This document shows positions 20,423 to 35,358 of a stretch of 40,676 bases of DNA, in pieces. Origin of the DNA: Gordonia sp. (in: high G+C Gram-positive bacteria) (GTDB lineage: Bacteria > Actinomycetota > Actinomycetes > Mycobacteriales > Mycobacteriaceae); NCBI RefSeq assembly GCF_020438995.1, contig NZ_JAGQTN010000292.1, forward strand, positions 1 through 40,676, read 5' to 3'. The translations under genes and the position numbers were made by a program. The notes under the pieces are model-generated. The model saw only the letters and a list, made by a program, of their open reading frames with translations. It was not told the DNA's origin and ran no database searches. Positions within the stretch are counted from its first letter, which is position 1. Each line of letters starts with the position of its first letter.

Positions 20423-23400
20423 TCAGCCGATGTCGAAGCCGGAATCGTCGAAGCCCAGGGTGTTGCCGTTCTCGCGGACCGTTCGTTGGCAGGCCTCGTC
20501 GAAGCCCGACGGTGCGGTGGCGCTGATCTCGATACGGACCTCGACCGAGGAGCCCGGTGTGGCCGCGAGGTGGTGCAGGATCTCCTGCTGGACGGTGGAG
20601 AAGTCCTTGGCCGGGAAATCGGGGTTCAGGGTCATCGCGCCCCAGTAGCGGGTCACCACCGGTTTCGGCTGGGTCGGGTCCGCCGGTTTGCGTGTGTTCT
20701 TGATGGGGCCGGGTACGTCGACGGGGTCGTCACCGGGGCCGTAGCGGGCGGCTTCGCGTTCGCGTTGTGCCTGTGCCAGATCGGGTTTGACGATGAGGGT
20801 GGAGTCGGTGAGTTGTGGGGTCGCGGCGTCGGTGGGCAGGTGCAGGTCGATGTACTCCTGCTCGGTGTCGTCCCAGCCGTAGGCGAAGGCGAAGCCGTTG
20901 ACGCTCCAGGAGGTGTCGTTGTACACCGAGAGCAGCCCGTCGGTCAGGGCGGTCTTGTCGCGCAGCCGTGTGAGATACGGGTAGGTGGCGTACAGGTTGT
21001 ACAGGTCACCGACGCTCACATGCCCCGATGCCCATACCGGCGCGATGGGACCGGACAGGTCCATCCCGATGAGCGTCGACGACCGGGTGGTGGCGAGCTG
21101 ACTGTTGTCGGAGATCTTGGTGCCGGTGCGGGCGACGAGGTCGTCGGTGGTGCCGCCGGTGTTGAGGGTGTCGAGTGTGTAGGTGGGCGCGTCGGGCGCC
21201 TGTGTGGGCAGGATCGCCCAGATGTATGTCTCCAGGAGGCGATCGGCGACGACGGTGTCGTGGCGCTGCATCCGGGTCAGGGCCTGTCTGGTCTGCTGGC
21301 CACCGAGGCCGAGGGTGTCGGCGTTCTGGTGAACGTAGCGCCACGCGAGGAACTCACGGACTGCTTCGTCGAGCTCGCGGGCGCGCTTGTCGTCGGCGGC
21401 GAGCACGATGAGACTGTTGCGGTAGCCCCGGTTGGCCGCACCCCGGTGTTCGAGGAGGTCCTTGGCCCACCCCAGCGCCGTCGACGACGTGGAACGTGCG
21501 GTGTGGGTGACCTTGAGCGGGGCGATCACCAGACGTGTCGCGGCCTCGTCGGGGACGTCGGACGTTCCGTCGGGGCAGACATGAACTCCCACGAAACTCC
21601 TGTCCCGTGACTTCTGGCGTGCGGCCTGCAACCGTTCGGCGACCTCGGCCCACACGTCGGCGTCGGGGAGGTTGGCGGCGTGGTCGCGGGCGGCACGGGT
21701 CGTATTTGCCTGCGTGTCATACCAATAGCGGCCGGCATCGGTGTACAGGTAGGTGGCGCGGTTGGCGAGGTGATCGAGCGCGGAATGGAAGTTGCCCGGA
21801 ACGTCGCCGGGAATGGCGGTGCCCAGAAAGATTCGCGGCTTGTCGACGCCCTTGTGTGCGGTGTGCAGGGTGGGGGTGGCGCCCATGAAGACGGACCGGG
21901 CAAGGCGCTGGGTGGTGCGGCGTTTGCCGTACAGTTCGCTTTCCTTGTCGATGGCGAACGGGGTGGATTCCTCGCCCGCCACATCCTGGGTGAGCACCGA
22001 CCGGAAATTGTCCTCCAGATACTGGGTGATCTCGGTGGTCACCGAATCCCGGTCCAGCGGAACCGAACCCGGCATGATCAGCGGCCCGGCGTCCTCACTA
22101 CGCCACAGGGTGCCGACGATGCGGTTCATCATCCGCAGCACGCCGCGGGTCCGCTGGAAACGGTGCAGCGTCGACCAATCCTCGTACAGCCGGTCGAACA
22201 GTTCGGGATGGATCGGATACGACGCCTTGATGCGGTCGATGTAGGCGGGTTCGAGTGCCTCGCTGGGGAATTCGGTGCTGTGCCGACGATAGTAGTCGAC
22301 GAGGCTCTTGGCGATCGAACTGATCTTGGCCAGCGTCGCGCCGTCGGGCGCGGCAAAGATGCGGCGCCGCACGATCTCGAAACTCTCCTGCGGGTTGGCG
22401 GGCAGCCAGTGGTCGGCGGTGCGGCCGACGATCGACTTGAGCCGGTTGAGCGCTTCACGGCCGTACTCGCCGCCGACCTCTTCGTCGTTGACATCGTCGC
22501 CGGATGTGCTGCTGTCCGGCCGGTTGTCGTACGACGCGGGGATGGAGATGACCACCTGAATTCCCTTGGTGGCCTTGGCCGCTTCGGTGAGTGTCTGAGC
22601 AAAGGTGAACTGGGTGTCGAAGTCGCCGGCGGGCAGCCCGCTCGAGTTCACCAATTGCCGTGCGTACGCCACCCATTCGTCGATGAGGATCACGGCGGGG
22701 GAATACAGGGCGAACAGTTCCCGCAGGGACGCACCGGGATTGGTGGAGGCGCGGTCGGCGTCGGCGACGATCTCGTACGCCTCCTGGCCACCGAGCTGCC
22801 ACGCCAATTCTCCCCAGATGGTGCGGATTCCGGGCCGCCCATCGGTGGTGTCGGTCTTGGCGGGCTCCATCTGATTGCCGACGAGCGCGACCCGGCGCAC
22901 CCCGTTGGGCAGCGCATCGAGCGGCTTGGCCAGATTGGCGACGTCGTCGGGGTATTCGATGCTGCCCAGCCCCGATGCGAGATGCCACAGCGCGAGCATC
23001 GAATGTGTCTTGCCGCCACCGAAATTGGTTTGCAGGTTGACCACGGGTGAGGCGTTCATGTCGCCGGCCAGGCGCCGCACATTGCGGTCGATGAGGTCGC
23101 GCAGGCCGTGCGTCAGATATGTGCGCTCGAAGAACTGCACGGGATCGGAGTACTCGCCGGCCTCCTTGCCCTGGGCGACGGTGTACAGGTCGGCGGCGAA
23201 CTCGGCGGCATTGAAGTTGTCGCTCGCGACATCGGGGTGCGGGCTGAGGATCTCGCGCCACGGCGGCAGATTGTCGGCGGCCACCGACGCGAGGTCGAGT
23301 TGGCGGGCCGCCTTGGTGTCCTCACGGTCGGCGGCGACCCGACGCAAGTCGACGCGCAGCTTGCGGACCTGCTCGGCCTCGGCGGGCGCGTTGATCGCCT

Positions 23401-23782
23401 TGAGTAGTCGTTCGGCGGTGTCGAGGATGCGCTGTGCGTCGTCGTTGTCGAAACTTTCCATGTGCGCCTGGCGGTTTCGTGCATCCCGTAGCTCGGAGGC
23501 GTAACTCTCCTGGACCCGCGACAGCATCCCATTGAGCGGATACCAGCCCTTGCGAACGGTTCCGGTCACGTTCTCGGTGATCATCCGCAGCCCGTTGGCC
23601 GGGTCGTCGGCGGTATACGTCTTGGTGGGTGCCGCCCCCTTGCCCTGGTCCTTGATCCGCAGGAGGTCGAGCCAGGTGCCATTCGGCACCTCCGGGTCGA
23701 TCGCCGCGGTGAGGAACCGGTTGAGTGCAGGTCCGAGCAGTTCCATCGCCTTGCCGATACGGTCCCGGTTGCTCAGTGCCAT
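20423..23782 (-). CDS. DUF499 AAA+ ATPase with N-terminal Swt1-type HEPN domain (BrxC/PglY-like)
   Basis: From the ATG at 23782 (GAGG upstream) the protein has 1119 residues. Residues about 8-125 match the Swt1-like HEPN domain placed at the start of DUF499 proteins, with the RX4H motif R102-NRQA-H107. A P-loop follows (NFGGGKTHS, 253-261) with Walker B AVILIDEW near 363-370, then DUF499 to about residue 900 and a variable C-terminus. DUF499/PglY-type ATPases are core parts of phage-defence systems such as BREX. An operator-like palindrome lies 22 bp before the start. Two DUF559 copies flank the gene as direct repeats. The defence role is inferred from family and context. Confidence 0.88.
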   Translation of the reverse strand: MALSNRDRIGKAMELLGPALNRFLTAAIDPEVPNGTWLDLLRIKDQGKGAAPTKTYTADDPANGLRMITENVTGTVRKGWYPLNGMLSRVQESYASELRDARNRQAHMESFDNDDAQRILDTAERLLKAINAPAEAEQVRKLRVDLRRVAADREDTKAARQLDLASVAADNLPPWREILSPHPDVASDNFNAAEFAADLYTVAQGKEAGEYSDPVQFFERTYLTHGLRDLIDRNVRRLAGDMNASPVVNLQTNFGGGKTHSMLALWHLASGLGSIEYPDDVANLAKPLDALPNGVRRVALVGNQMEPAKTDTTDGRPGIRTIWGELAWQLGGQEAYEIVADADRASTNPGASLRELFALYSPAVILIDEWVAYARQLVNSSGLPAGDFDTQFTFAQTLTEAAKATKGIQVVISIPASYDNRPDSSTSGDDVNDEEVGGEYGREALNRLKSIVGRTADHWLPANPQESFEIVRRRIFAAPDGATLAKISSIAKSLVDYYRRHSTEFPSEALEPAYIDRIKASYPIHPELFDRLYEDWSTLHRFQRTRGVLRMMNRIVGTLWRSEDAGPLIMPGSVPLDRDSVTTEITQYLEDNFRSVLTQDVAGEESTPFAIDKESELYGKRRTTQRLARSVFMGATPTLHTAHKGVDKPRIFLGTAIPGDVPGNFHSALDHLANRATYLYTDAGRYWYDTQANTTRAARDHAANLPDADVWAEVAERLQAARQKSRDRSFVGVHVCPDGTSDVPDEAATRLVIAPLKVTHTARSTSSTALGWAKDLLEHRGAANRGYRNSLIVLAADDKRARELDEAVREFLAWRYVHQNADTLGLGGQQTRQALTRMQRHDTVVADRLLETYIWAILPTQAPDAPTYTLDTLNTGGTTDDLVARTGTKISDNSQLATTRSSTLIGMDLSGPIAPVWASGHVSVGDLYNLYATYPYLTRLRDKTALTDGLLSVYNDTSWSVNGFAFAYGWDDTEQEYIDLHLPTDAATPQLTDSTLIVKPDLAQAQREREAARYGPGDDPVDVPGPIKNTRKPADPTQPKPVVTRYWGAMTLNPDFPAKDFSTVQQEILHHLAATPGSSVEVRIEISATAPSGFDEACQRTVRENGNTLGFDDSGFDIG

Positions 23783-23803: not shown

Positions 23804-23817
23804 CACAACATGTTGTG
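23804..23817. promoter_or_regulatory. island operator O1: perfect palindrome CACAAC-AT-GTTGTG
   Basis: This 14-bp perfect palindrome ends 21 bp before the DUF499 start codon. The same half-sites recur before the DUF1156 methylase and helicase genes. It is the probable binding site of the XRE regulator encoded at 34990. Confidence 0.6.
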
Positions 23818-23865
23818 AGTCCTGACTGTATCCCGCGCCACCGACATGTGGGGTCGCCGGGTGAG

Positions 23866-23900
23866 TGTGCAGGTAGTCTCGGTTTCCGGGTCTGATCGCA
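23866..23900. repeat. REP-like hairpin, copy 3
   Basis: This is a degenerate copy of the hairpin. On the minus strand it follows the stop codon of the DUF559 relic as TGCGATCAGACCCGG, AAA, CCGAGAC. Confidence 0.5.
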
Positions 23901-23903
23901 CAG

Positions 23904-24222
23904 TCAGGCGGCCGCGAGCTGGTGGCGGACGGTGACGATTTTGCGGAGTGTGTCGCCGGGGCGCGCGAGATGTCGGTGCGCCGAGCCACCAGACTGCGGC
24001 CGCTCCGCCGAGCACTGCGTGATCCCCGACGGACAGTGCGGCGATCCGGGCCTGTGCCCGCGCCGACCGGTGCCGCCCGGCCACGAGGTAGACCCCCGGT
24101 GTGACCGCTGTCCACTTGCCCGACGACAGCCGCCGCCCGATCGCCGACGTACTCAGGTGCAACCGCGCTTGCCGCGCGCTCAGTACCCCGTCGTGCCTGA
24201 TGATGAACTCGTTCAGATCCAT
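23904..24222 (-). pseudogene. internally deleted DUF559/AbiEi-type gene
   Basis: The first 81 codons (MDLNEFIIRHDGVLSARQAR to VWWLG) closely match the intact gene at 19437-20306. After about position 23979 the frame is lost. In another frame the last 22 residues (HLARPGDTLRKIVTVRHQ, then LAAA and stop) match the C-terminus of the intact protein (LLERPDETVDAVLSTRRR, then LSAA). About 190 internal codons, including the nuclease core, are missing. The length (319 bases) is not a multiple of three. The promoter block and hairpin copies are still present, so the relic may still make a short winged-helix peptide. Confidence 0.8.
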
Positions 24223-24258
24223 GGGGATCAGACGCACCGGCGAGGCGTTCGGTTCCAT
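24222..24258 (-). promoter_or_regulatory. ECF-sigma-type promoter, leaderless (copy 3 of 3)
   Basis: GGAAC (24252-24256) and CGTC (24231-24234) are again 17 bases apart and the start codon is eight bases further on. The spacer has diverged from the other two copies, but the two elements and both distances are kept. Confidence 0.5.
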
Positions 24259-24271
24259 TTTCGTCTGAGGT

Positions 24272-24304
24272 TGCTGGTGATCCCGGTTTCCGGGACTGAT
24301 CGCA
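24272..24304. repeat. REP-like hairpin, copy 4
   Basis: TCCCGG, TTT, CCGGGA forms the core, with arms resembling copies 1-3. The adjoining CGCCTGACTGTGCGATCAG (minus strand) is the same as the 3' end and hairpin of the relic, so it may be the tail of a further lost DUF559 gene. Confidence 0.55.
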
Positions 24305-24318
24305 CAGTCAGGCGAGCA

Positions 24319-24370
24319 TTGACATGCGATTGTGAGGGTGTATGTGGCATCTCTTGGTTAATCGTGGCAT
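24319..24370 (+). promoter_or_regulatory. promoter and GTGGCAT direct repeats of the VapBC-like pair
   Basis: TTGACA (24319-24324) and TATGTG (24341-24346) are 16 bases apart. GTGGCAT occurs at 24344-24350 and again at 24364-24370, a 20-bp spacing that could serve as the antitoxin's binding site. Confidence 0.45.
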
Positions 24371-24379
24371 TATTCTCTC

Positions 24380-24628
24380 ATGAGTGTCACGGTGACTTTG
24401 GGGAAGCAAGGGCGGCTCGTGGTCCCGGCTGAGCTGCGCACGGAACTTGGCCTCGGAGAGGGGGACGTCCTGCACGTTCAGCGCATCGGTAGGCGGATAG
24501 TCCTGGAACGGCCGGTGGACGCACTGCGCGAGCTGCGCGGAATTATGACTCCGGCGACGCGCGGCAAGTCGCTGGTTGAGGAACTGCTCGCTGACCGCAT
24601 CGCGGAGGCGGAAGCCGACAAACGGTGA
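24380..24628 (+). CDS. AbrB/MazE-fold antitoxin (VapB-like)
   Basis: This 82-residue protein has a swapped-hairpin AbrB N-terminus (VTLGKQGRLVVPAELRTELGLGEGDVLHVQ) for DNA binding. A helical C-terminal tail (SLVEELLADRIAEAEADKR) is the part that would wrap a PIN toxin. It overlaps the toxin start. Antitoxins of this class repress their own operon as toxin complexes. It lies on the plus strand, opposite to the surrounding defence genes. Confidence 0.88.
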   Translation: MSVTVTLGKQGRLVVPAELRTELGLGEGDVLHVQRIGRRIVLERPVDALRELRGIMTPATRGKSLVEELLADRIAEAEADKR

Positions 24629-25005
24629 TGATCCTGGATGCGTCGGCCGTACTGGCGTTTCTCAATGACGAACCCGGCGCTGACACGGTTGCCGACGCCA
24701 TACCGGGCGCGCTGATATCGGCGGCAAATCTCGCCGAGGTGCTCGGGAAGGTCGGTGATTGGGGAGGCGACATCGTCGGCATAGAGGAACGACTGCGGGC
24801 CGCCGGCCTACAGGTTGCCCCGGTGCAGGCCGACGACGCGGTGGTAGTAGCGGCACTCCGTCAGCTCGACGGCGGCACAGCGCTGTCGCTGGGTGACCGG
24901 TGCTGTCTTACCCTCGGTCTGCGGCACCGCCCGGCAACAGTGCTCACCTCCGACCGCGCCTGGGCGGAGCTGGACCTACCTATCGACATCGCACTGATCC
25001 GATGA
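24628..25005 (+). CDS. PIN-domain toxin (VapC-like ribonuclease)
   Basis: The 125-residue protein has the PIN acidic sites: D4 (MILDASAVLAFL), a Glu in NLAEVL, a Asp in SLGDRCCLTLG and D104-type in VLTSDRAW. VapC toxins cut tRNA or rRNA and stop growth until neutralised. It overlaps the antitoxin by one base (TGATG); an in-frame GTG at 24625 is an alternative start. Toxin-antitoxin pairs are common fillers of defence islands. Confidence 0.9.
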   Translation: MILDASAVLAFLNDEPGADTVADAIPGALISAANLAEVLGKVGDWGGDIVGIEERLRAAGLQVAPVQADDAVVVAALRQLDGGTALSLGDRCCLTLGLRHRPATVLTSDRAWAELDLPIDIALIR

Positions 25006-25045
25006 GTTGTCTCGTGGGGCAACTCAGACCGTACGAGGGTGAGTC

Positions 25046-25597
25046 ATGTTGACTGCGTGGGGCGACGAGAGCGGATCGTGACCTGATCGCGACGGCGGCG
25101 CGTACTTGATGGGTGCGGCGCTCTGTGATGACACCGATGTGAGTGCTGTCCGCGCCACCATGGCTGCCCTCCGGGCTACCGAGCCGAAAGTGCATTGGCA
25201 CGGTAGCAGCGAGCTTCGTCGGCGCGACCTCATCGATGCCGTTGCGGCGCTGCCGATCGTGGGTCTCGCAGTTGTGCATGTCGAAGTCGGCGCGATGGAT
25301 CGGCGCCAGCGCCGTAAGTGTTTGGAGCACTTGCTTCCTCAGCTTGCGGATCTGCCGTGTTCGACCGTCACCCTCGAATCACGAAGCAAACAGGATGCGA
25401 GTGATCTGGATCTGTTGCAGAAACTGCGTGCCCGGCGGGTGATCGCCCCGACGTTGCAAATCAAGCATATTGTGGGTCGGCTGGAGCCAGTGCTGTGGGC
25501 GGCGGACATCATCTGTGGTGCGGTTGTCGCCGATCGCTGTGGAACGGCCGACTACCTCAAGACTTTGGGCCAGGTTGTGGAAGTCCAGGTCATCTGA
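25046..25597 (+). pseudogene. DUF3800-like gene interrupted by an in-frame TGA
   Basis: The frame starts at ATG 25046 (GAGGGTGAG upstream) and reads MLTAWGDESGS, then TGA at 25079-25081, then PDRDGGAYLMGAALCDD and on to 25597. The DESG N-terminus, HWHGSSELRRRDLI, ESRSKQDASDLDLL and LEPVLWAADIICGAVVADR are the marks of actinobacterial DUF3800 proteins with an RNase H-like fold. The stop removes the first conserved acid (Asp in GDESG) from any product made by restart at ATG 25109. The rest is intact in frame, so the mutation is recent or a sequencing error. A structured segment follows at 25613-25719. Confidence 0.7.
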
Positions 25598-25612
25598 CGG
25601 CAGATAGACCGC

Positions 25613-25719
25613 GAGCCACGGGCCTCGTCATCCGGCGAGTAATCCCGTGGCTCACTTCCACACCTACCGCGATAGGCGGGCTACACCAGGCACGCTACCG
25701 CATCACGCGGGCGACGTGC
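25613..25719 (+). ncRNA. structured RNA-like segment downstream of the DUF3800-like gene
   Basis: Three hairpins stand in a row. GAGCCACGGG (25613-25622) pairs with CCCGTGGCTC (25644-25653) and encloses CTCG/CGAG. CCTA pairs with TAGG around 25663-25676. GCACG (25690-25694) pairs with CGTGC (25715-25719) and encloses CCGC/GCGG. No reading frame explains the segment. Several classes of conserved DUF3800-associated RNA motifs have been reported near such genes, so this may be one. The last hairpin could also be the terminator of the methylase gene on the minus strand. Confidence 0.5.
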
Positions 25720-25720
25720 G

Positions 25721-28489
25721 TCAGTCGGTGAGGGTGGGTTGCCAGGAGGAGGTGGGGGCCTGGCGGGCGATGTCGTTCCAGGCGGCACCCAGGTTGTTGA
25801 AGTCGACGGCCAGTTTCGTCTTCTTCTTGTCCTCGGCCAGCTTGAACAGCAGGTGGGCCAATTCCTTGCACAGATCCCAGTCGACGCCGCGGGGCACCCG
25901 GCCCAGCAACGACGCCGCGGCCGGGACACCGTCGGAGGCCAGCACGCGGGTGACGTGCATCACCACCTCCCACTGGCTGATCGACTCGTCGGTGGCCGGA
26001 TCGTAGTCGGCCGGCATATCCGACGGCGCGATCAGCGCCACCTTGCCGCCGCCCTTGGTCAGGATGCCCGCCCGTTCCAGGCCGTCCAGGGACACCCCGC
26101 GTGCGTTCGCGATCGACTCCGCATCGCCGAACTTTCCTGTGTCAAAACCGTTCTGCCGGAACCACGTCAACGCGAACCGCGTCTCCCGGTCGAAGTCGTT
26201 CTCCAGCTCCGTCAGCACCTCGTCGAGGATCGCATTGATCCGCTGCAGGGCCGTGCGGACCGTCATTGTCGAACCGTCGTCCTCCAGGACCGCGCTGTAG
26301 CGGGAGAACACCGCCATGCCCGGGCCGATCGCGGCTTGTGGCAGATCCACCGGGGCGATCGAACCCTGTTGCAGTTCTCGCAGTTTCGACGGGAGTTCCG
26401 ATTTGAGGGCGGCGAGGAAGCCGCGGCGGTCCGTGCGCGGGGCCGATTCGGGGCGGGGGCGGCAGGCCAGGACAATGGAGGACGCGAGGGCGTTGGTTCC
26501 CCTGGCCACCATGCGGTTGGATGCCTCACTGCGCATTGGCCACGTCGCAGTGATGGACCATCCTGAATGGATCATGCCTTCGAGTAGTGTCTCCCATCCG
26601 GTCGATGAATCACCCTCGACGGCTGAGTCTTGCTGCTTGAACGCGTAGTAGACTGTCATCGGAAATTCTGATGGAGCACTCTCGCGAGCGGTCCGAAAGA
26701 CATCTCGAAACCCTGACTCGAAGTAATCTTGTGCCGCACCGACACCATTGTGGCGGTATGGGTTCGCCACGAGCTCTTGTGATTTAGGTACGAGCAGTGT
26801 TCCGAGAATTGATGGATGAACAGGTCGGAGAATCTGCTTGAGCCATACATAGAAGTAGTCGGACAAGTCTGAATAGCCAATGTTGTCATAGTATGGAGGA
26901 TCTGTTGAAATGACAGCTTGACTAGCGACCGCGGCGCGCGCATCGAGTTGTTGTACCAGTCCAACCGCGGACGCGCGTTGCCCAGCGAGAACTGCTGCCG
27001 TCCATAAGAATGAGTTCGAGAATGATCCAGTATTGTCGGCGAGTGGATCAACTTCGGAATGGTCCCAGACCATCGGTAATGCCTGACGTGCGAATGTTGA
27101 GCTTGTCGACTCGCGTGTGACGTACCAGTTGGTGAGCGTTGAGTTCCGATCCGTCATTTTGCTGACAGCCAGCCCCAAGTACGTTGCGACCGCATCTGCG
27201 TAGGCTTCGGCTCCGACGCCGCCGTTGTCGAGGCGGTCGCCGGTGGGCAGGCCGGCGGCGAGGGCGTCGTGGAGGACTTTGTCGCGGGCCTCACCGGCGA
27301 GGTCGCTGAAGGTGGTGAGGGCGGTGAGCTGGCGTGGGGTGAAGAGGGAGGCGAAGGTAGTGAATCCGTACGCCGGAGGTGAAAACCACCGAGGGTTCGT
27401 GGCGACGTCACCGGACGGTGCGTCAGCAGGATTGGCAACATTGGCAGCTTCGACGTGCTCGGCTGTCGGCGGTAGATAAACGCGGCGGCGATTTCCTTCG
27501 GCAACGATGGCCATGAGCTGCGCGCCGATGTGGCCGTTGATTCCCTCGCTGCGCAAGTAGTTGAGGTCGCACGCCGCCCCACACCGCACACACGTCGCCC
27601 CCGTCCGCCCGACGGTTCCGTCGGTTTCCTTGGTGGGCGCGGCTTTCAGGTCGTGACCGATCTCGAAGCGGACGGTCTTGCCGTCGATGACGGGTACGAC
27701 GTACGCCTCTTTGCCCTTCTTCTTTCCGAGCCACCACGATCGGACGAGGGGCATGGCGATGCCGCAGGCGGGGTTGGGGCAGGTGACGGTGCGCGCCCAA
27801 ATCCAGGCGATGACGGTCGCCTTGGTGCCGTCGGGGAGGGTTGCTTTGGGATACAGGTGCCCGATGCGCTTTTCGGCTTCGTCGCGCATCCACTGGCCGT
27901 AGCGGCGGACGTCTTCGGCGAGTCCGGTTGCCCGGGGCCAGGTCTGAATCGATTCCTCAGCGGCGCCGGGGAAGACCGGGCGTTGGCCCGCGAACTTGGG
28001 CGGGATCTCGATGAGCGCTTTATTGATCAGTACCGCAACAGGATTCAGGTCCGAGGCGTGTGCTTCGAGACCGAGTCGTTGCGCCTCAAGGGGAATGGTG
28101 CCGCCGCCGGCGAACGGGTCGAGGATCGGCGGTGGGTTGCCGTCGGTCGATTCGAGGATCTTCTCGTGCGCTTCCCGCAGCAGCGCCCCGTCGTTGGAGT
28201 TCTCCCACACGACGAGCCGTTCGATCAGGGCGTGCAGCTTCTTGCGGGCGAGGGTCTGGTCCTCCTCGCTCGGGTACAGGTCGGGCCGCGACGACGGATC
28301 GTCGACAAGTTGCGCAAACAGCACCGCCCGGGCGGCGGCGAGGGGGCGTCGCGCCCACCACAGGTGCAGCGTCGACGGATGCCCGTGCCGGATCGACTTC
28401 TCCCGCGCAGACTCGGCGTTGATGGTCTCCAACGGCAGACTGACCTCGATCAGCTTTCTCGTACCAACATGTTGTGCACCGCTCGGCAT
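25721..28489 (-). CDS. DUF1156 adenine-type DNA methylase with zinc ribbon (PglXI-like)
   Basis: From the ATG at 28489 (GAGAGGG upstream) the protein has 922 residues. DUF1156 is at the N-terminus (LIEVSLPLETINAESAREKS, HPSTLHLWWARRPLAAARAV). Motif I DPFAGGG (124-130), zinc-ribbon cysteines at 237-243 and 300-307, and motif IV DPPYYDNIGYSDL (530) follow. These residues bind S-adenosylmethionine and the flipped base, so it should methylate adenine or N4 of cytosine. BREX type 3 uses a methylase of this kind. Roughly 26,580-27,150, which holds DPPY, is clearly poorer in G+C than the rest of the gene. The divergent toxin-like gene shares its upstream operator region. Confidence 0.9.
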   Translation of the reverse strand: MPSGAQHVGTRKLIEVSLPLETINAESAREKSIRHGHPSTLHLWWARRPLAAARAVLFAQLVDDPSSRPDLYPSEEDQTLARKKLHALIERLVVWENSNDGALLREAHEKILESTDGNPPPILDPFAGGGTIPLEAQRLGLEAHASDLNPVAVLINKALIEIPPKFAGQRPVFPGAAEESIQTWPRATGLAEDVRRYGQWMRDEAEKRIGHLYPKATLPDGTKATVIAWIWARTVTCPNPACGIAMPLVRSWWLGKKKGKEAYVVPVIDGKTVRFEIGHDLKAAPTKETDGTVGRTGATCVRCGAACDLNYLRSEGINGHIGAQLMAIVAEGNRRRVYLPPTAEHVEAANVANPADAPSGDVATNPRWFSPPAYGFTTFASLFTPRQLTALTTFSDLAGEARDKVLHDALAAGLPTGDRLDNGGVGAEAYADAVATYLGLAVSKMTDRNSTLTNWYVTRESTSSTFARQALPMVWDHSEVDPLADNTGSFSNSFLWTAAVLAGQRASAVGLVQQLDARAAVASQAVISTDPPYYDNIGYSDLSDYFYVWLKQILRPVHPSILGTLLVPKSQELVANPYRHNGVGAAQDYFESGFRDVFRTARESAPSEFPMTVYYAFKQQDSAVEGDSSTGWETLLEGMIHSGWSITATWPMRSEASNRMVARGTNALASSIVLACRPRPESAPRTDRRGFLAALKSELPSKLRELQQGSIAPVDLPQAAIGPGMAVFSRYSAVLEDDGSTMTVRTALQRINAILDEVLTELENDFDRETRFALTWFRQNGFDTGKFGDAESIANARGVSLDGLERAGILTKGGGKVALIAPSDMPADYDPATDESISQWEVVMHVTRVLASDGVPAAASLLGRVPRGVDWDLCKELAHLLFKLAEDKKKTKLAVDFNNLGAAWNDIARQAPTSSWQPTLTD
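28463..28476. promoter_or_regulatory. operator-like site inside the methylase gene
   Basis: ACCAAC-AT-GTTGTG at 28463-28476 lies in codons 5-9 of the methylase gene. One half-site is exact and the other differs at the first two bases from CACAAC. It may be a second contact point for the island regulator. Confidence 0.35.
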
Positions 28490-28530
28490 GGCAGCCCTCT
28501 CGCTTGAGACCAGAACGTTGCAGACTATTG

Positions 28531-28552
28531 CACAACAAGTTGTGTGCACAAC
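28531..28552. promoter_or_regulatory. island operator O2: three half-sites before the methylase gene
   Basis: CACAAC (28531-28536), GTTGTG (28539-28544) and CACAAC (28547-28552) follow each other with two-base gaps. The first two form the same CACAAC-N2-GTTGTG site as O1. It lies 41 bp before the methylase start and 66 bp before the divergent toxin-like gene. Confidence 0.6.
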
Positions 28553-28618
28553 TCACCGGTTGGATGTCGTAGGTGGCCGGTAGTGTCAGCGCGCCGGATA
28601 TGTAGTGGAGGGGGATTC

Positions 28619-29143
28619 GTGCGGGGAGAGTCTGGTCGATCGCTCGACTCAGGTGAGCGCGGGCTGGAACGACTGCTGGATGCCGCGATGCGCCGCCGTA
28701 TTCGGGATGACTCGGTCACCCTCGCCGACGTGCTGACCTTGGCCCGTCAGGTACATGACTATCGGGACGGGAACTCGCGACCTGCGCATCTCGACGATCG
28801 GGTCGGAGTGCTTGATGACAATGAGCGGGTTATCGCTGAGCTGCTTGTGTCCGAGGGTCGAAATGTCACTCATGTAGTTCGGCGCAAGTCAGGGGAACCG
28901 ACCCCGGACCTGGTGGTAGACGGCGAATTCGCTGAGGTCAAGACCAGTATTGGCGCCGGCGTCGAGGGGTTTCGTCGTAGGCTCCACGGGGCGCAAGCTT
29001 CGCGTGTGTTTGTCAATGCACGCAGGTCGCTGATCGATCCTGACGCGATGGACGACCTGGTATCCGGCCTGATCGGTGATGCGTGCCTAACGTATGCTCG
29101 GGTCATTGGCGAGGGCTACGACACAACGTACGGAGAGTGGTGA
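28619..29143 (+). CDS. PD-(D/E)XK nuclease toxin-like protein (CdiA C-terminal domain type)
   Basis: The 174-residue protein has an N-terminal helical region (about 1-70) and a C-terminal domain with TPDLVVDGEFAEVKTS, giving D97, E106 and K108 of a PD-(D/E)XK site. The following RRRLHGAQASRVFVNARRSL resembles the tRNA-nuclease C-terminal domain of CdiA-type toxins. No secretion signal is present, so it would act inside the cell. GTG 28619 is backed by GGAGGGGG four bases before it. It is divergent from the methylase gene and four bases from a small acidic partner gene. Confidence 0.6.
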   Translation: MRGESGRSLDSGERGLERLLDAAMRRRIRDDSVTLADVLTLARQVHDYRDGNSRPAHLDDRVGVLDDNERVIAELLVSEGRNVTHVVRRKSGEPTPDLVVDGEFAEVKTSIGAGVEGFRRRLHGAQASRVFVNARRSLIDPDAMDDLVSGLIGDACLTYARVIGEGYDTTYGEW

Positions 29144-29146
29144 TCG

Positions 29147-29494
29147 ATGATGTCTGACGGCAGTCGTTACGACCTGCTGTACGTCGGTGTGGTCGGCGAC
29201 GGCGAGCTGGTTGCCTTGATGGAGAAGGCGTTTGGGGTCGGCGGCACTTGGCGTGAGTTCCGGAATTCCCGCGGCTACTACTGCGACAGCGTCGGCTTCT
29301 GGATCACGATCGGCGGTGAGGCGGGCGAACACCCGCACGTGACCGTCGATGCCCCTACCGTCGGTGAGCAACAGCAGCGGGCGCTCGATGTGTTCGACCG
29401 GCTCGCCGCCGCCGATGCGTCCGTCGCACTGACCTTGGTTGCCGAAGACGACAGCGTTGTCCGGCGCAGACCGGCCGGCACACGAGTCGCATAG
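29147..29494 (+). CDS. small acidic protein, possible immunity or antitoxin partner
   Basis: The 115-residue product (YDLLYVGVVGDGELVALMEKAF, then YYCDSVGFWITIGGEAGEHPHV) is a soluble alpha/beta protein with no known motif. It starts three bases after the nuclease-like gene and is probably made from the same message, with ATG at 29147 or 29150. By position it would neutralise the upstream toxin-like protein, but nothing in the sequence proves this. Confidence 0.6.
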   Translation: MMSDGSRYDLLYVGVVGDGELVALMEKAFGVGGTWREFRNSRGYYCDSVGFWITIGGEAGEHPHVTVDAPTVGEQQQRALDVFDRLAAADASVALTLVAEDDSVVRRRPAGTRVA

Positions 29495-29516
29495 CACGGC
29501 GAAGTCCGTGGGCGCC

Positions 29517-29741
29517 TCAAACAAGCAGCCTCCCAGCGCTGTAGGTGTCGGCGAGGTGCTGGACGAACGCCGCTTCTCGTTCGTCCATCGGTCCGACGAA
29601 TCGCCAGTTGCGTTCATAGAGGCGCAACGCTTCCGGTTCGCTGACCTCGGTGTCGTCTCGGAGTTGCCAGGAGATCGTCCGGAGCTGGGGATAGTCGCCG
29701 ACGCGAACGACCGGCTCCGGCCGCGCGCTGGGCTTACGCAT
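29517..29741 (-). CDS. small conserved hypothetical protein
   Basis: The product is 74 residues from an ATG at 29741 with AGGAGG five bases upstream. It has a basic N-terminus and then VVRVGDYPQLRTISW, EALRLYERNWRFV and a helical C-terminal segment. This resembles short actinobacterial proteins of unknown function that I recall only by pattern. It converges on the small partner gene at 29494. Nothing indicates an enzyme or DNA-binding domain. Confidence 0.6.
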   Translation of the reverse strand: MRKPSARPEPVVRVGDYPQLRTISWQLRDDTEVSEPEALRLYERNWRFVGPMDEREAAFVQHLADTYSAGRLLV

Positions 29742-29847
29742 CCCATCCTCCTGTCGCGTGATCGTTGACACTACGCCTTCTCACGGTACGCCGTGCGGTG
29801 GATATCAGAGAGTGTGACGGCGGCGGTCAACTACTCGACGTATGTCA

Positions 29848-29904
29848 CCGGACCCTTCGTGACGCGTCCGGCTCGCAAGCTCACCGGCCGCTCCTCAGGG
29901 ATCA
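29848..29904. repeat. dispersed repeat, copy 1
   Basis: CCGGACCCTTCGTGAC (29848-29863) and CTCAGGGATCA (ending at 29904) flank a variable middle. The same ends recur at 35419-35468. The rest of 29742-30023 contains no gene I can support. Confidence 0.4.
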
Positions 29905-30023
29905 GATGTCGCGTCCTGGCTCGCCGAATACGGTGCCGCAGATGCCGATGAAGAAGGCCGCCACTGCGCCAGTACGAACTCGAGGGACGGGACAGCTGGG
30001 TTGGTAGGAATGGTCGTGGGCCA

Positions 30024-31271
30024 TCAGGCCGTCCAGATGGTGTCCAGCGGAACTGCTGCGATCCGGTCGCCGACCGGGATGCCTGTTCCGCCGGTGTGGA
30101 GGACGAGGCCGGTGACGAATCTCTTGCCGAGTTTGTCGCGCAGCTGACCCAGCCACTTTGCGTCGTGACCGCTCAGTCGTGAGCTCGACTTGACTTCGAT
30201 TCCTGCTACGCGGCCGTCCGGGGTTTCGAGGATCACGTCGACTTCACCCGCGGCGCGGTCGCGGAAGTGGCTCATCCGGAAAGTTTCCTCGGCCCACGCC
30301 TGTTGGCGGCGTATCTCCGCGGTGACGAACCCCTCCAACAGATGGCCTGCGACCTCGCCGTACTTGTCCGGTCCGGCTCCTGCCGCCGAAAGGTTGAGGA
30401 GTCGGGCCGCGAGACCGGTATCGAGGAGGGATGCTTTGGGGCGGGACACGGCTCGTTTGGTGAGGTTCGTCGACCAGGCAGGTATCCGTTGGATCAGATA
30501 CATCGTCTCGAGCAGATCGAGCATGCGGTTCAGGGACGTCGTCGGAATCTCGGATTCCTTCGACACGTCGGAGAGATTGAGTTCTTCGCTGTTGCGAGCG
30601 GCGAGCACACCAAGGAGTCGGGGCAGTTCATCGATACGTTGCAGGCTGCTGATCTCGCGGGCGTCGCGTTTCACGATGCTGTTCAGGTAGTTGTCCATCC
30701 AGGCTGCCCGGCGGCGTCCCGGCGGACGGGACAGCGCTTCTGGATAACCACCCGACACGGCTCGTTCCAAGTAGTCAGAACGCGTCAGAGTGCTTGTGTG
30801 ACCGGTGAATCGTTCGCCCGCGAATAGCCGATCAACGAACGTCTCGCGATGTCCTGCGAGCTCACCCTGGCTGAACCCGTGCAACTCGATGCTCTCGACC
30901 CGGCCTGCGAGGCTGTCTTTCGCTGCGGGCAGTCTCAGCAGATCGGCCGAGCCGGTGACGAGGAAGCGACCGGGTCGTTGATCGCGGTCCACCACGTACT
31001 TCAACGCCGACACCATCTCGGGTGCGAGCTGAATCTCGTCTATCGCGAGGAGGGGCTCGTCGTGCTGCAGGAAACCTATCGGATCGGCCCGTGCCAGGTT
31101 CAGTGTGGTCTCGTCATCGAAGGTGACCAGGCGACCGCCGCGTGCCGCGACGATTTCCTGCACGAGAGTGGTCTTGCCGACTTGTCGCGATCCTTGGAGT
31201 GCGACGATCCTCGTGTCATCCAGCGCTTCGTAGATGCGCGGCGTCACGTGTCGGTCGATATGCCCGTTCAC
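30024..31271 (-). CDS. AAA_14 ATPase with DUF4143 domain
   Basis: The 415-residue protein has an N-terminal P-loop (LQGSRQVGKTTLVQEI, residues about 26-40), Walker B LLAIDEIQLAPE, and VTGSADLLRLPA (sensor-1 region). A winged-helix DUF4143 half follows, with a late nuclease-like VDVILETPDGRVAGIEVKSS (D, E, K arrangement). These ATPases are very common in mobile gene pools and their role is unknown. A TACTTT box six bases before the GTG start suggests a leaderless message. Five 22-bp repeats lie upstream. Confidence 0.88.
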   Translation of the reverse strand: MNGHIDRHVTPRIYEALDDTRIVALQGSRQVGKTTLVQEIVAARGGRLVTFDDETTLNLARADPIGFLQHDEPLLAIDEIQLAPEMVSALKYVVDRDQRPGRFLVTGSADLLRLPAAKDSLAGRVESIELHGFSQGELAGHRETFVDRLFAGERFTGHTSTLTRSDYLERAVSGGYPEALSRPPGRRRAAWMDNYLNSIVKRDAREISSLQRIDELPRLLGVLAARNSEELNLSDVSKESEIPTTSLNRMLDLLETMYLIQRIPAWSTNLTKRAVSRPKASLLDTGLAARLLNLSAAGAGPDKYGEVAGHLLEGFVTAEIRRQQAWAEETFRMSHFRDRAAGEVDVILETPDGRVAGIEVKSSSRLSGHDAKWLGQLRDKLGKRFVTGLVLHTGGTGIPVGDRIAAVPLDTIWTA

Positions 31272-31315
31272 CTGGCTAAAGTAGCATCATGGCGGCTGTG
31301 GTGCGGCGCTGAGGT

Positions 31316-31415
31316 GGTGGATTCGCACCATTTCTGTGGTGGATTCGCAGTATTGAAGTGGTGGATTCGCACCATTTTGCTGGTGGATACGCAGTATCTG
31401 GATGATGGATTCGTA
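31316..31415. repeat. five direct repeats with 22-bp period (iteron-like)
   Basis: GGTGGATTCGCA starts at 31316, 31338 and 31360. Variants GGTGGATACGCA and GATGGATTCGTA start at 31382 and 31404. The period is exactly 22 bp, near two helix turns. The array lies between the ATPase promoter and the helicase stop and begins about 33 bp upstream of the -10-like box at 31278-31283. Confidence 0.75.
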
Positions 31416-31447
31416 CAGCGTCGGCGAGCGGAGCCGGCCAGTTGTGA

Positions 31448-34400
31448 TCAGTGTGGGGGCTTGCCCTTGGCCCAGGATTTGCGCCAGTCGAGTTCGATGC
31501 CGGAGACGTCGGTACCGCCGATGTCGAAGCCGCTGAAATGGTCGGTGAGGTAGCGGATGTCGTCGTGGTCGGGGCCGGCATCGCTGACCGAGACCAGGGC
31601 GAGGCGATGGCGGGTGCCGGTGTTGCGGCCGTGCAGGATCTCGTTGTAGGTGACGAAGAAGGTATCGGCGCCCTCGATACGGCCCTTCACCTCGATGAAC
31701 ACCGTCGGGCCGCGGACGCCGTCGGCGTCGGGGAGGGGAACCGAGCGGATGTCGTAGCCCTTGTTGTTGTGGGGCATCTCCTCCGGCTCGCGGCCGAGGG
31801 CGCGCTCAGCGGCCAGTACGGCGGCGACCGCGCGGGCGTCGGTGATCGTTGTGTCCTTGGCGTGCTTGGCCACCGCGCCACCGATCAGGCCGGCGGGGAT
31901 CACCAACATCACGGCGCTCAGCGTCGGTGGGCGAGCGGTGAGTGCGGCGTCCTTGGTGAGGTCGGCCATGCGGGCTTCGTGGCGGGCCTGCAGGTCGCGG
32001 GCCTGGTTCTGCAGCCGGTCGGGACTGTGCCGCAACCGTTTTCCGGCCTTGCCGGCCGCGATAGCCTCACGCAGGCGCGCGGCTTCACCGTCGAGGTAGT
32101 TGATCTGGGACACCAGCCGGGACTTCACCGCGGACCTGGTCTTCTCGATAGTTGGCAACAGTCGTTCCCGGACTTCGCGGAGGTGCTCGGGCTGTGCGAC
32201 GCCCGCGGCCCAGGTCATCGCCGCGACGTGTGCGTTGGCGGACACCTGCGTGCGGGCCTGGTCGGCGAGCGACCCGGCGCTGTCGGGGAGGGTCGTGAGA
32301 TCCAGGTGCGGCGCCGAACCGGCATCGGCGAGCACCGGTTCGTCGTCGGCGCCGGCAGTCACCGAGACAAACGCGAAGCGCTTGCTGACGGTGATGCCGT
32401 GGCCGTCGACGATCTCGCCGGTCATCGCGACGATCACCGAGGGCACCGTCCCCGGATCGGTCGGATCGAACAGCACCGCACCGTCACTCAACGCCTGCTG
32501 GCCGCGCTCGATGGTGACGTCGAGCAGGGTGTCCAGCAGCGGATGGCCGGGGGCGAGCAACTCGGCACGTTTGGATCCCGACACCGCGGCGGGCTCGAAT
32601 GTGACCCGCTCGTACGAGGTGACCACCGGGCGGCCCGCATGCTCGCGACGAACCGGCCGATGGCGAAGTGCCCCTGGCACATTCGAGATCTGATAGCGAG
32701 CCTTCTCGCGGGGCTTCACCCGCCCGCCCAACGCGCCGAACGCGTCGACGAAGAACTTCTCGATGTAGTGCGGCTGTAGCCTGCGTGCCGTCGCATCGTC
32801 CATCGCTCGGCGCAGCCGGTCCAGTTCGAGCGGTCCCAGCGTTTCCCTGGCCAGGGCGCGTCCCTCCACGAGTTCGGTGCAGCCGTCGGCCACCTGGGCG
32901 TCGACGACCCGCTCGATCTCCGCGATCCGGGCCGGGTCGTCGCCGTACCGGATCGCGTCCATCAGCAGTGTGCGCAACGGGGTTTCGCTGAACGCATCAC
33001 CGAGGACGTCGAACAGTCTGCCGCCGTAGGCCTTTCGTTGCCGCTCCATCTTGATCAGCAGTCGCTGATACACCTGTCCCTCGCGGGTCTGGTCGGCCAC
33101 CAGATTCCATAACCGGCACACCTTCTCCTGCCCGATCCGGTGAATCCGGCCGAACCGCTGCTCGAGCCGGTTCGGATTCCACGGCAGGTCGTAGTTGATC
33201 ATCAGGTGCGCGGCCTGCAGATTCAGGCCCTCACCGGCGGCGTCGGTGGCGATCAGCACCTGCCGGTGCGGCTCCTGGGTGAACTGTTCGCGGACGGCCA
33301 CCCGGTCGGTGCGGCGGGTGCCGCCGTGGATGGTGAGCACGGCGTCGTCGGAGCCGATGACATTGCGCACCTGTCGGGTCAGATAGTCGAGGGTGTCGCG
33401 GTGCTCGGAGAAGATGATCAGCTTGCGGGGATTTCCGTCGTCGTCGCGCAACAGTGAACGGTCGATGAGCAGTGACCGCAGCTCCGCCCACTTGCGGTCG
33501 TTGCCGCTGTCGCGGACATGCGTCGCCAATTCCACCAGGTTGTCGAGGATCGCGATCTCGGCGTCGAGTTCGGCGACCGTACGGGCGGCGGTGGCCGCGT
33601 CCACCACCTCTTCCTCGACGCGTTCGTATTCCTCGGCGCTGAACTCGTCGGGATCGTCGAAATCCTCCGGCTGGGGAACCCTGCCCGGATCGTCGGCGGC
33701 GGTGTACCGGCCCGCGGCCATATCGGCACGTTTGGTGGCCAAGCGGTCTCGGCGTCGTTGCAGACTCCGCAGAATGGCGTGGGTACTTGATGCCAGGCGT
33801 CGTTGCAGGACGGTCAGCGCGAACCCTACTGTTCGTCGTTGCGGCGAATCACCCTGTGAATCAACCCGATTCATCTCGTTGCGGACGTAGCCGGTCACCG
33901 CCTCGTACAGCTCGAGTTCGGCCTGGGACAGTTCGTACGGGACGGTCTCGGCGATCCGTTCGGGGAACAAAGGCTTACCGTCGAAGGTCAGCAGTTCCTC
34001 CTTCACCATCCGGCGCATGAGGCCGGTGGTGTCGGTGGATGTGGTCTCGCCGCGTGCCTCGCCCTCGAATCGGTCCGGGTCGAGCAAGGCCAGGAACGCC
34101 TGGAAACTCGTCTCGATACCCGAATGCGGGGTCGCCGTCATCAGCAGCAGATGCCGGCTGATCGAACCCAGCAGCTCGCCGAGCTCATAGCGGGAGGTCT
34201 TACGTAGCTCGCCGCCCCACCAGTTGGCCGACATGCGATGCGCCTCGTCGACCACGACGAGATCCCATTCGCTGCGGCTGAGAATCTCCTTCAGCTCGTC
34301 GTCGCGGGCGAGCTGGTCCATCCTGGCGATCAGCAGCGGATGGGCGGGGAACGGATCACCTCCCAGACTCGCGTTGATCAGCTCGCGGGTCAGGATGGTG

Positions 34401-34927
34401 GCCGATATCCCGAACTTGGAGTCCAACTCGTCCTGCCACTGCTCCACCAGACCGCCCGGTGCGACGATCAGCATTCGCGTCAGGTCGCCGCGCAGCATCA
34501 GTTCCTTGGCGTAGAGTCCGGCCATGACCGTCTTACCGGCGCCGGGGTCGTCGGCGAGCAGGAAGCGCAGCGGCGTGCGGGGGAGCAGTTCGCCATAGAC
34601 GGCCCGGATCTGGTGCGGCAGCGGCGAGATGTCGCTGGTGCCGACGGCCAGCATCGGATCGTGCAGTCCGGCCATCCGGATGCGCAGGGCCTCGGTGGCG
34701 AGTTTGAACTCGCGGGGGTCGGCGGTGAATGTCCAGGTTGTGGCGTCGTCGGAGACGATCTCGATACCGTCGAGGTCGCCTGCGAAGAACATTTCCTCGC
34801 TGATCGTCCCGTCGGTGCGGCGCAGGATCACCGTAGACGCGTCGGGGCCGAGCGGTTCCACCGCGACGACGGTGACGGGTTCGGGCCAGCGGCCCCGCAG
34901 CCGGATCTGCGGCTTGAGGTCGGCCAT
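31448..34927 (-). CDS. SNF2/DEAD-type helicase with C-terminal DUF3883 domain (BrxHII-like)
   Basis: The 1159-residue protein has an N-terminal RNA/DNA-binding region, Walker A DDPGAGKTVMAG (about 127), VVVDEAHRM (DEAH, about 227), LLMTATPHSG, and the C-terminal helicase lobe with LIIFSEHRDTLDYL and VLIATDAAGEGLNLQ, RFGRIHRIGQ. The last 110 residues have a DUF3883-like GYDI...IEVKGR (about 1056-1083). The ATG at 34927 is preferred; ATG 34948 lies inside operator O3 and is less likely. It is the third gene of the defence set, divergent from the XRE regulator. BREX type 3 and DISARM both use SNF2-type helicases. Confidence 0.88.
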   Translation of the reverse strand: MADLKPQIRLRGRWPEPVTVVAVEPLGPDASTVILRRTDGTISEEMFFAGDLDGIEIVSDDATTWTFTADPREFKLATEALRIRMAGLHDPMLAVGTSDISPLPHQIRAVYGELLPRTPLRFLLADDPGAGKTVMAGLYAKELMLRGDLTRMLIVAPGGLVEQWQDELDSKFGISATILTRELINASLGGDPFPAHPLLIARMDQLARDDELKEILSRSEWDLVVVDEAHRMSANWWGGELRKTSRYELGELLGSISRHLLLMTATPHSGIETSFQAFLALLDPDRFEGEARGETTSTDTTGLMRRMVKEELLTFDGKPLFPERIAETVPYELSQAELELYEAVTGYVRNEMNRVDSQGDSPQRRTVGFALTVLQRRLASSTHAILRSLQRRRDRLATKRADMAAGRYTAADDPGRVPQPEDFDDPDEFSAEEYERVEEEVVDAATAARTVAELDAEIAILDNLVELATHVRDSGNDRKWAELRSLLIDRSLLRDDDGNPRKLIIFSEHRDTLDYLTRQVRNVIGSDDAVLTIHGGTRRTDRVAVREQFTQEPHRQVLIATDAAGEGLNLQAAHLMINYDLPWNPNRLEQRFGRIHRIGQEKVCRLWNLVADQTREGQVYQRLLIKMERQRKAYGGRLFDVLGDAFSETPLRTLLMDAIRYGDDPARIAEIERVVDAQVADGCTELVEGRALARETLGPLELDRLRRAMDDATARRLQPHYIEKFFVDAFGALGGRVKPREKARYQISNVPGALRHRPVRREHAGRPVVTSYERVTFEPAAVSGSKRAELLAPGHPLLDTLLDVTIERGQQALSDGAVLFDPTDPGTVPSVIVAMTGEIVDGHGITVSKRFAFVSVTAGADDEPVLADAGSAPHLDLTTLPDSAGSLADQARTQVSANAHVAAMTWAAGVAQPEHLREVRERLLPTIEKTRSAVKSRLVSQINYLDGEAARLREAIAAGKAGKRLRHSPDRLQNQARDLQARHEARMADLTKDAALTARPPTLSAVMLVIPAGLIGGAVAKHAKDTTITDARAVAAVLAAERALGREPEEMPHNNKGYDIRSVPLPDADGVRGPTVFIEVKGRIEGADTFFVTYNEILHGRNTGTRHRLALVSVSDAGPDHDDIRYLTDHFSGFDIGGTDVSGIELDWRKSWAKGKPPH

Positions 34928-34940
34928 CGTCAGTGGTGCA

Positions 34941-34970
34941 CACATCATGATGTGCTGACAATACGTTGTG
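34941..34970. promoter_or_regulatory. island operators O3 and O4 between helicase and XRE genes
   Basis: O3 is a perfect palindrome, CACATC-AT-GATGTG, at 34941-34954. O4, GACAAT-AC-GTTGTG, is at 34957-34970. The centres are 16 bp apart. Both are variants of the CACAAC-N2-GTTGTG site at O1 and O2. They occupy the divergent promoter region. Confidence 0.55.
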
Positions 34971-34989
34971 TGTCCGACAAATTGGTTGG

Positions 34990-35358
34990 GTGCCTGCCCG
35001 AGAACGTGGATCCCTCGACTGGGGGACCTACGGAGATTCCGTCGCGCGCCGGCTCTCATTCATCCGGGGCCACCGGGGACTGTCCCAGGAAGAAGTGGCC
35101 AATCGGTCGGGGATGCACCGCAACCAGGTGTCCAACCTCGAACGCAATCATTCCAACCGTGATCCGTACATCGCGGACCCGCAGTTATCGACGATCTATC
35201 GGCTCGCGCTCGCTCTCTCCGTGCCGCCCGCGTGGTTGCTGCCCGATGTCGACCGGCCCGTGCAGCGGCGGTCGCCGGAGCAGGCGTCGAACAAGGCCGT
35301 GTCGGTGGTCGAGGCGGAGTTGGAGCGGTTGTTGTCGGAGCAGGAAGCCGAACGCTGA
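34990..35358 (+). CDS. XRE family helix-turn-helix regulator
   Basis: The product (122 residues from GTG 34990) has a Cro/CI-type DNA-binding domain at residues 19-84: RRLSFIRGHRGLSQEEVANRSGMHRNQVSNLER, then a long loop and PQLSTIYRLALALSVPPAWLLP. A helical tail follows with VSVVEAELERLLSEQE. A TTG at 34966 could start a longer form, but it lies in O4. Its position next to O3 and O4, and the same operator at all three transcription units of the island, make it the likely repressor or timer of the defence genes. Confidence 0.82.
   Translation: MPARERGSLDWGTYGDSVARRLSFIRGHRGLSQEEVANRSGMHRNQVSNLERNHSNRDPYIADPQLSTIYRLALALSVPPAWLLPDVDRPVQRRSPEQASNKAVSVVEAELERLLSEQEAER

Follow-up and report, generated by a model that had tools for sequence, protein, structure and literature searches.

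In the restriction-modification (RM) system Esp1396I, passages of PMC4041747 describe a controller protein, C.Esp1396I, that runs the C/R genes from two operators, the distal one of high and the proximal one of low affinity; the methylase gene is also repressed. Parts of the reports on two other defence regulators state that the BrxR island contains two sites bound by BrxR (PMC9122601) and that conservation of RptR goes together with that of its site (PMC12255303). For Hma systems, which are centred on a DUF499 protein, no transcription regulator or operator is named in the portions consulted of the PADLOC paper or of the DUF499 section of PMC12839542, and no transcription regulator was found described in the excerpts of the open-licence PMC literature searched. 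The window analysed here is one whole contig of 40,676 nucleotides from a draft Gordonia genome (4.8 Mb). It carries the three genes hmaA, hmaB, and hmaC, a small XRE-family regulator gene (XRE) divergent from hmaA, and a recurring palindromic operator. It is likely, with a probability of roughly three in four, that XRE controls the Hma genes and itself as one regulon through this shared operator.

Operator sites in the window

A perfect 14-bp palindrome, CACAACATGTTGTG, is located at positions 23804-23817, just downstream of the putative hmaC -10 box. The hmaB promoter contains CACAACAAGTTGTG at 28531-28544. Two sites lie between the hmaA and XRE genes, the distal site 1 (CACATCATGATGTG, 34941-34954) and the proximal site 2 (GACAATACGTTGTG, 34957-34970), each with two mismatches to the consensus CACAAC-N2-GTTGTG. 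These sites had been listed in an earlier reading of the window made from its letters without database searches (the sequence-only reading), and all listed coordinates and letters were correct when checked again. A fifth site, ACCAACATGTTGTG at 28463-28476, is absent from that reading and lies within the first hmaB codons. The third half-site, CACAAC at 28547-28552, which follows CACAACAAGTTGTG and a TG, was also listed there as part of the pattern. It is probably incidental, because it is missing from L104, the nearest relative island, whose XRE is 92% identical.

A genome-wide search, proposed in the same reading as a check, found perfect CACAAC-N2-GTTGTG only twice in the 4.8-Mb draft. Both copies are in the window, at hmaC and hmaB, and the numbers expected from base composition are 0.0012 for the window and 0.15 for the genome. 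Allowing one mismatch gives eight sites genome-wide, two of them in the window. The six others look like background because the reversed control pattern gives 19 sites against these eight; the two that were inspected (L003 and L004) both fall within predicted coding frames. Allowing two mismatches gives exactly five sites in the window, all at Hma/XRE promoter regions. Shuffled windows contain 1.44 such sites on average, and 2 of 100 reach five. Since five is only mildly above the shuffles, the two-mismatch sites convince only by their position and conservation. With three mismatches allowed, the excess in the window disappears (19 vs 14.8).

The operator across Hma islands

The regions from -160 to +70 around each fetched hmaA, hmaB, and hmaC start were scanned in 61 Hma islands with the pattern CACANC-N2-GNTGTG, allowing one mismatch. 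An XRE gene is adjacent in 22 islands, and all 21 that are testable have an operator at one or more Hma promoters; the stretch of the remaining island, G077, contains no Hma start. G390, with an XRE about 33-41% identical and a differing operator, was set apart by hand, and counting it in makes the adjacent class 21/22. Where XRE is encoded elsewhere in the genome, 8 of 11 islands carry an operator. This count omits G572, whose contig begins in a stretch also present in the G156 island and is cut there (9/12 with it). The islands of this class lacking an operator are that of G264 and, in both G565 and G220, a second Hma copy that is more distant. Operators are present in only 1 of 15 islands from XRE-less genomes (G190), and the 12 unclassed islands, which include G390, give one match (G350).

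Counted by promoter, the operator is present at 40/52 in XRE-adjacent islands, 17/33 where XRE is elsewhere (G572 included), 2/42 in XRE-less genomes, and 1/31 in unclassed islands. The reversed-sequence control gives about 0.012 matches per region scanned. The contrast between islands with any XRE and those without (29/32 vs 1/15) has a Fisher p-value of 3e-8, and that between unlinked-XRE and XRE-less islands (8/11 vs 1/15) one of 8e-4. When the 15 XRE-less genomes were rechecked with a profile, 12 had no match at 1e-6 and three had weak matches of 3e-7 to 9e-7 (G294, G557, and G560). Among 59 Gordonia genomes, XRE occurs in 28 and HmaB in 24, with both in 19 (G572 among them; p 7e-5), XRE alone in nine, and HmaB alone in five.

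The sequence-only reading had also called for a comparison of the upstream regions of homologous islands. The sites recur there at the same places and track XRE: the tandem pair in its 16-bp register before XRE, hmaB, hmaC, and the coding start of hmaB. A 30-base composite of the pair (16 fixed bases, at most two mismatches) precedes XRE in 39 of 69 distinct upstream regions, whether Hma genes are nearby or not. The tandem pair is also retained where the DNA fetched around an XRE gene contains no Hma (for example L065, L068, L107, L111, and L116). Judged from the sequences compared, it is thus XRE, and not Hma by itself, that the motif accompanies in Gordonia and its near relatives.

The intragenic hmaB site at 28463-28476 is kept in related islands as well. 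Counted without G572 and without the second Hma copies of G565 and G220, a dyad with at most two mismatches occurs here in 15/19 XRE-adjacent islands and 3/8 unlinked ones, and in none of the 15 XRE-less or the 12 unclassed islands. The N-terminal HmaB tract [AT]-[QH]-x-[VI], the codons of which spell the palindrome, is found in 17/19 and 5/8 islands of the first two classes and in 0/15 and 0/12 of the last two. The palindrome is kept in the DNA while the encoded residues vary (QHVG, QHVV, QYVV, QRVV, and QQVG). Because it stays while the residues change, it argues for selection acting on the DNA at this site.

Several observations weigh against a single XRE regulon. Most of the XRE-less islands come from an Hma group further removed from that of the window (their HmaC is 41-49% identical to the one in the window), so shared ancestry explains part of the contrast between islands with and without XRE; the closer XRE-less exceptions, G108 and G135 (HmaC 54 and 52%), have no operator. 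The intragenic-site contrast is subject to the same confound. G190 has operator-like sites and no XRE was found in it, and G264 has XRE and no site within one mismatch. Of the 69 XRE upstream regions, 30 lack the composite, and every one of the 13 Corynebacterium rows is among them; in two of these rows, L145 and L147, GGCAGACA comes after a degenerate site 1. At positions 5/10, the letter in the Hma sites is only loosely linked to that in the XRE sites of the same genome (Spearman 0.49, p 0.015, n=24), the link is not significant for the hmaB and hmaC sites alone (Spearman 0.33, p 0.14, n=21), and G182 and G578 run contrary to the trend.

Some islands depart from the common layout. The island of Gordonia asplenii G553 contains two XRE copies (L106:4530-4990 and 9681-10064), one divergent from hmaB and the other from hmaA, each with its own operators. 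In G565, whose island is the nearest to that of the window, hmaB lacks its middle (L104:10384-11090) and the operators are kept; the second, more distant Hma of this genome, at L222, has no operators. An island remnant in G276 (L071:9107-10296), with a broken XRE and only the first part of hmaA, retains the tandem operators. G390, from another family, has divergent XRE and hmaA genes (L076:2353-2680 and 8444) with CCCAAC-N2-GTTGGG before hmaA and a one-mismatch copy of it before hmaB; none was seen before hmaC. By its sequence this is the same layout with a changed operator letter. The first 2000 bases of the Hma contig of G572, a Gordonia metagenome-assembled genome, are identical in the G156 island of another genus (L218/L234), reflecting either recent transfer or mis-binning.

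XRE and the Hma island are encoded far apart on one contig in G192 (about 854 kb), G575 (872 kb), and G558 (778 kb). Despite the unlinked XRE, G192 and G575 have operators at hmaA, hmaB, and hmaC, and the hmaC site of G575 is perfect. G558 has an operator at hmaB and, beyond the one-mismatch limit, CACACTACTGTGTG before hmaA, resembling its own XRE site CACACAGATGTGTG. Tentatively, and at odds clearly below even, an autoregulated host XRE, located in many Gordonia at a chromosomal place without Hma, may govern a mobile Hma island in trans, with the islands of other lineages owning an adjacent copy. With an operator at each of its promoters and one in hmaB, such an island would be controlled only in hosts owning XRE. 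The three Hma-free XRE loci scanned with Pfam are near greA, Vut_1, DUF4307, and PIG-L genes. No XRE match was found in 50,697 phage records or in viral contigs, and two were found in plasmid records (Tsukamurella and Variovorax). In an XRE tree of 41 rows, Hma adjacency is clustered with at least four changes on well-supported branches, and branches are long; the tree is compatible with either arrangement, Hma-adjacent or elsewhere, having come first.

Seven further sites outside the XRE and Hma loci, with L164 and L165 counted as a pair, were considered as signs of a wider regulon, and that reading was rejected. L120, L163, L164, and L165 are inside or at predicted coding frames, and L159, L161, and L162 precede genes that by eye resemble those for secreted or metabolic proteins. 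The remaining site, CACAACATGATGTG at L119:7737-7750 in Gordonia liuliyuniae (G182), is about 30 bp before the gene for a 454-residue NERD-domain protein, and the XRE of this genome is on another contig. The NERD-domain gene is a possible extra target in trans and the only such candidate outside the XRE/Hma loci.

Promoter geometry and the XRE protein

The three Hma genes are on the minus strand, and their products were assigned with Pfam and PADLOC. The hmaC gene (20423-23782) encodes a DUF499 ATPase with a Swt1-like HEPN domain (Pfam DUF499 1.2e-28 and HEPN_Swt1 4.4e-25; PADLOC HmaC 801 bits). The hmaB gene (25721-28489, start put at the ATG at 28489) encodes a DUF1156 DNA methylase (Pfam DUF1156 7.9e-30; PADLOC HmaB 1100 bits). 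The hmaA gene (31448-34927, start put at the ATG at 34927) encodes an SNF2/DEAD-type helicase with a NOV_C domain (Pfam Helicase_C and NOV_C; PADLOC HmaA 1279 bits). With HmaA, HmaB, and HmaC encoded together according to the PADLOC models, the three large genes are identified as an Hma defence system, DUF499-centred and related to bacteriophage exclusion (BREX). Between hmaB and hmaA, at 30024-31271, is the gene for an AAA_14/DUF4143 ATPase (PADLOC PDC-S01, 524 bits), for which no relative was found at 1e-5 among the Hma or XRE loci compared. The XRE gene is on the plus strand (34990-35358; Pfam HTH_3 3.9e-10) and encodes 122 residues from the GTG at 34990, most plausibly its start.

Putative -10 boxes were located beside the operators. 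That of hmaC is TACAGT (23825-23830, minus strand), and a TANNNT sequence is present within 15 nucleotides upstream of the operator in 14 of the 16 islands with an hmaC operator (scan 1-15 nucleotides; background 0.089). That of hmaB is TAGTCT (28522-28527, minus strand), and TANNNT follows the operator by 0-4 nucleotides in 13 of the 25 islands that have one at hmaB (background 0.034). The p-values of both counts are overstated because related islands are not independent. A possible hmaA -10 box, TATTGT, lies within XRE site 2 (34958-34963, minus strand). The putative XRE -10 box, CAAATT (34978-34983, plus strand), was taken from the upstream sequences, and the XRE mRNA would be leaderless, starting at about the GTG. 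Assuming that start, the distal site is centred at -42.5 and the proximal site at -26.5.

Placed against these boxes, the operators look repressor-like, and the geometry points mainly to repression. A dyad centred near -42 can activate too, as lambda CI does at PRM, and the same geometry makes activation of the XRE gene from the distal site possible. The hmaC operator varies with the gap between hmaC and hmaB: it is present in 10/11 islands with a gap above 300 bp, 6/12 with a gap of 67-214 bp, and 0/2 with a gap of 8-9 bp. The operators thus appear to follow in part the borders of transcription units.

Sites that are conserved, track the XRE gene, and lie beside -10-like boxes suggest a mechanism in which binding, dimerisation, repression, and the order of occupancy are what we infer. 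XRE, probably as a dimer, would bind CACA[A/T/C]C-N2-G[T/A/G]TGTG. The single dyads near the hmaB -10 box and at the hmaC start region would let it block RNA polymerase, and the intragenic hmaB dyad would act likewise, as would the tandem pair at the promoter from which hmaA and XRE diverge. Most likely, hmaA, hmaB, and hmaC would be repressed, and the XRE gene would be autoregulated through the two dyads in 16-bp register.

The AlphaFold2 model of XRE has a mean predicted local distance difference test (pLDDT) score of 92.5, and its helices 33-40 and 44-51 are read as the helix-turn-helix (HTH). No WYL domain is present; Pfam gives HTH-type families only. The profile search against the PDB places C.BclI (2.2e-10) and C.AhdI (3.1e-10) at the top of 51 matching sequences, with the C.Esp1396I chains lower in the same list, and the PADLOC Control_protein models match weakly (best 1.8e-5). 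On these profiles and the AlphaFold2 model, XRE is a small HTH protein of the Cro/C1 type, with kinship to known C proteins. Its gene is not upstream of an endonuclease gene that it could drive: the next gene on its own side is glpK, on the opposite strand, and the divergent neighbour is hmaA. The claim of the sequence-only reading that XRE unites these genes in one regulon with feedback on itself is well supported by the comparison, in which the motif tracks XRE across islands, contexts, and unlinked loci and the profile is nearest to RM controllers. The delay of a harmful activity that it also raised is no more than a possibility, and its third half-site is not conserved in L104.

The recognition helix may bear on site choice. 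Residue 46 (RNQ or RNA) was set against the letter at position 10 of site 2, where the ratio of A/T to C/G is 21:5 with Q and 1:7 with A (Fisher 0.001; 22:5 and 2:7 if one unrelated helix per class is kept). As several of the A types are closely related, this candidate specificity code is a lead only.

How XRE would act on the regulon can be read in two ways. The better of the two, a serious possibility somewhat short of an even chance, is that XRE simply represses the entire regulon until phage infection, when a ligand or the disappearance of XRE would relieve the block and turn on defence in the infected cell; proposals of this kind exist for RptR, BrxR, and CapH. The overlap of operators and promoters fits this, and defence islands with such repressors are described in parts of PMC12255303 (RptR) and PMC9122601 (BrxR). 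Against it, only HTH families match XRE in Pfam, and neither a sensor domain, nor a ligand pocket, nor a partner protease was identified.

Rather less probable is a C-protein timer, in which XRE at distal site 1 (-42.5) recruits RNA polymerase at low level and occupation of site 2 at high level switches the gene off. Methylase and ATPase would be repressed as XRE accumulates, and the activities would be ordered after island entry. The profile kinship to C.BclI and C.AhdI suggests such a role, as does the combination of tandem dyads at the regulator's own promoter with single dyads at the methylase gene, an arrangement reported for Esp1396I in the passages of PMC4041747 cited above. Mean mismatches to the consensus rise in an order similar to that of the Esp1396I operators, from hmaB (1.0, n=19) through XRE site 1 (1.9, n=21) to site 2 (3.8, n=21). 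The hmaB mean is favoured, however, because it takes the best site in a region and the XRE sites are fixed places; the means for hmaC and hmaA are 1.9 (n=16) and 1.8 (n=17), and in the window sites 1 and 2 have two mismatches each. Moreover, XRE is divergent from the helicase gene and not in a nuclease operon, and the hmaA, hmaB, and hmaC sites look only repressive.

Other explanations and known systems

It is improbable that the motif is read by another protein, either a host regulator or HmaB autoregulating in the manner of M.SsoII, with XRE a bystander. Binding of XRE to the motif is deduced from sequence comparison, and part of the literature describes the methylase M.SsoII as regulating its own system. 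The motif is nevertheless found before XRE genes where no HmaB was found, for example at L068 (G074), L111 (G573), and L105 (G550, proximal site), and of the 15 XRE-less genomes 14 lack it at their Hma promoters. That the repeats arose by chance or from a constraint on coding has a negligible probability: although two-mismatch sites alone are only mildly unusual (2/100 shuffles), genome-wide rarity of the perfect sites and a footprint conserved in several genera contradict a chance origin, and the intragenic palindrome outlasts residue changes and occurs in none of the 27 HmaB starts from XRE-less and unclassed genomes.

If the XRE regulon is real, controller-type proteins are not confined to small type II RM systems. 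One would run a large BREX-like system at several promoters, and such a protein could act from a distant locus. The operator set would give a direct handle on how Hma systems stay silent and on what turns them on.

The window resembles the Hma systems of PADLOC and the DUF499-centred, BREX-related systems described in part of PMC12839542 in having HmaA, HmaB, and HmaC and a fusion of HEPN and DUF499. As portrayed in parts of their sources, BrxR and CapW, WYL repressors of BREX and of cyclic oligonucleotide-based antiphage signalling systems (CBASS), and RptR of a type I RM system are likewise dedicated defence-island regulators with palindromic or inverted-repeat promoter sites. BrxR and CapW differ in the WYL domain that XRE lacks. 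RptR, in the portion of the source consulted, recognises a palindrome of 6 bp that is repeated three times at a single promoter, whereas here one type of 14-bp dyad occurs at several promoters over 11 kb.

The likeness to C.Esp1396I, which has operators OL and OR and a third one at the methylase gene, is that of a small HTH_3 regulator whose own promoter carries operators in tandem and whose methylase promoter carries one too, following the same passages of PMC4041747. The tandem dyads are conserved, the proximal one being worse on average (3.8 vs 1.9 mismatches) and equal in the window (two each). XRE differs from the C proteins in its 122 residues, with an extra C-terminal helix predicted by the model, and in its gene, which is divergent from a helicase gene, has no endonuclease operon, and is often unlinked to Hma. 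It would also differ in reach, running a three-gene BREX-like system at three or four promoters.

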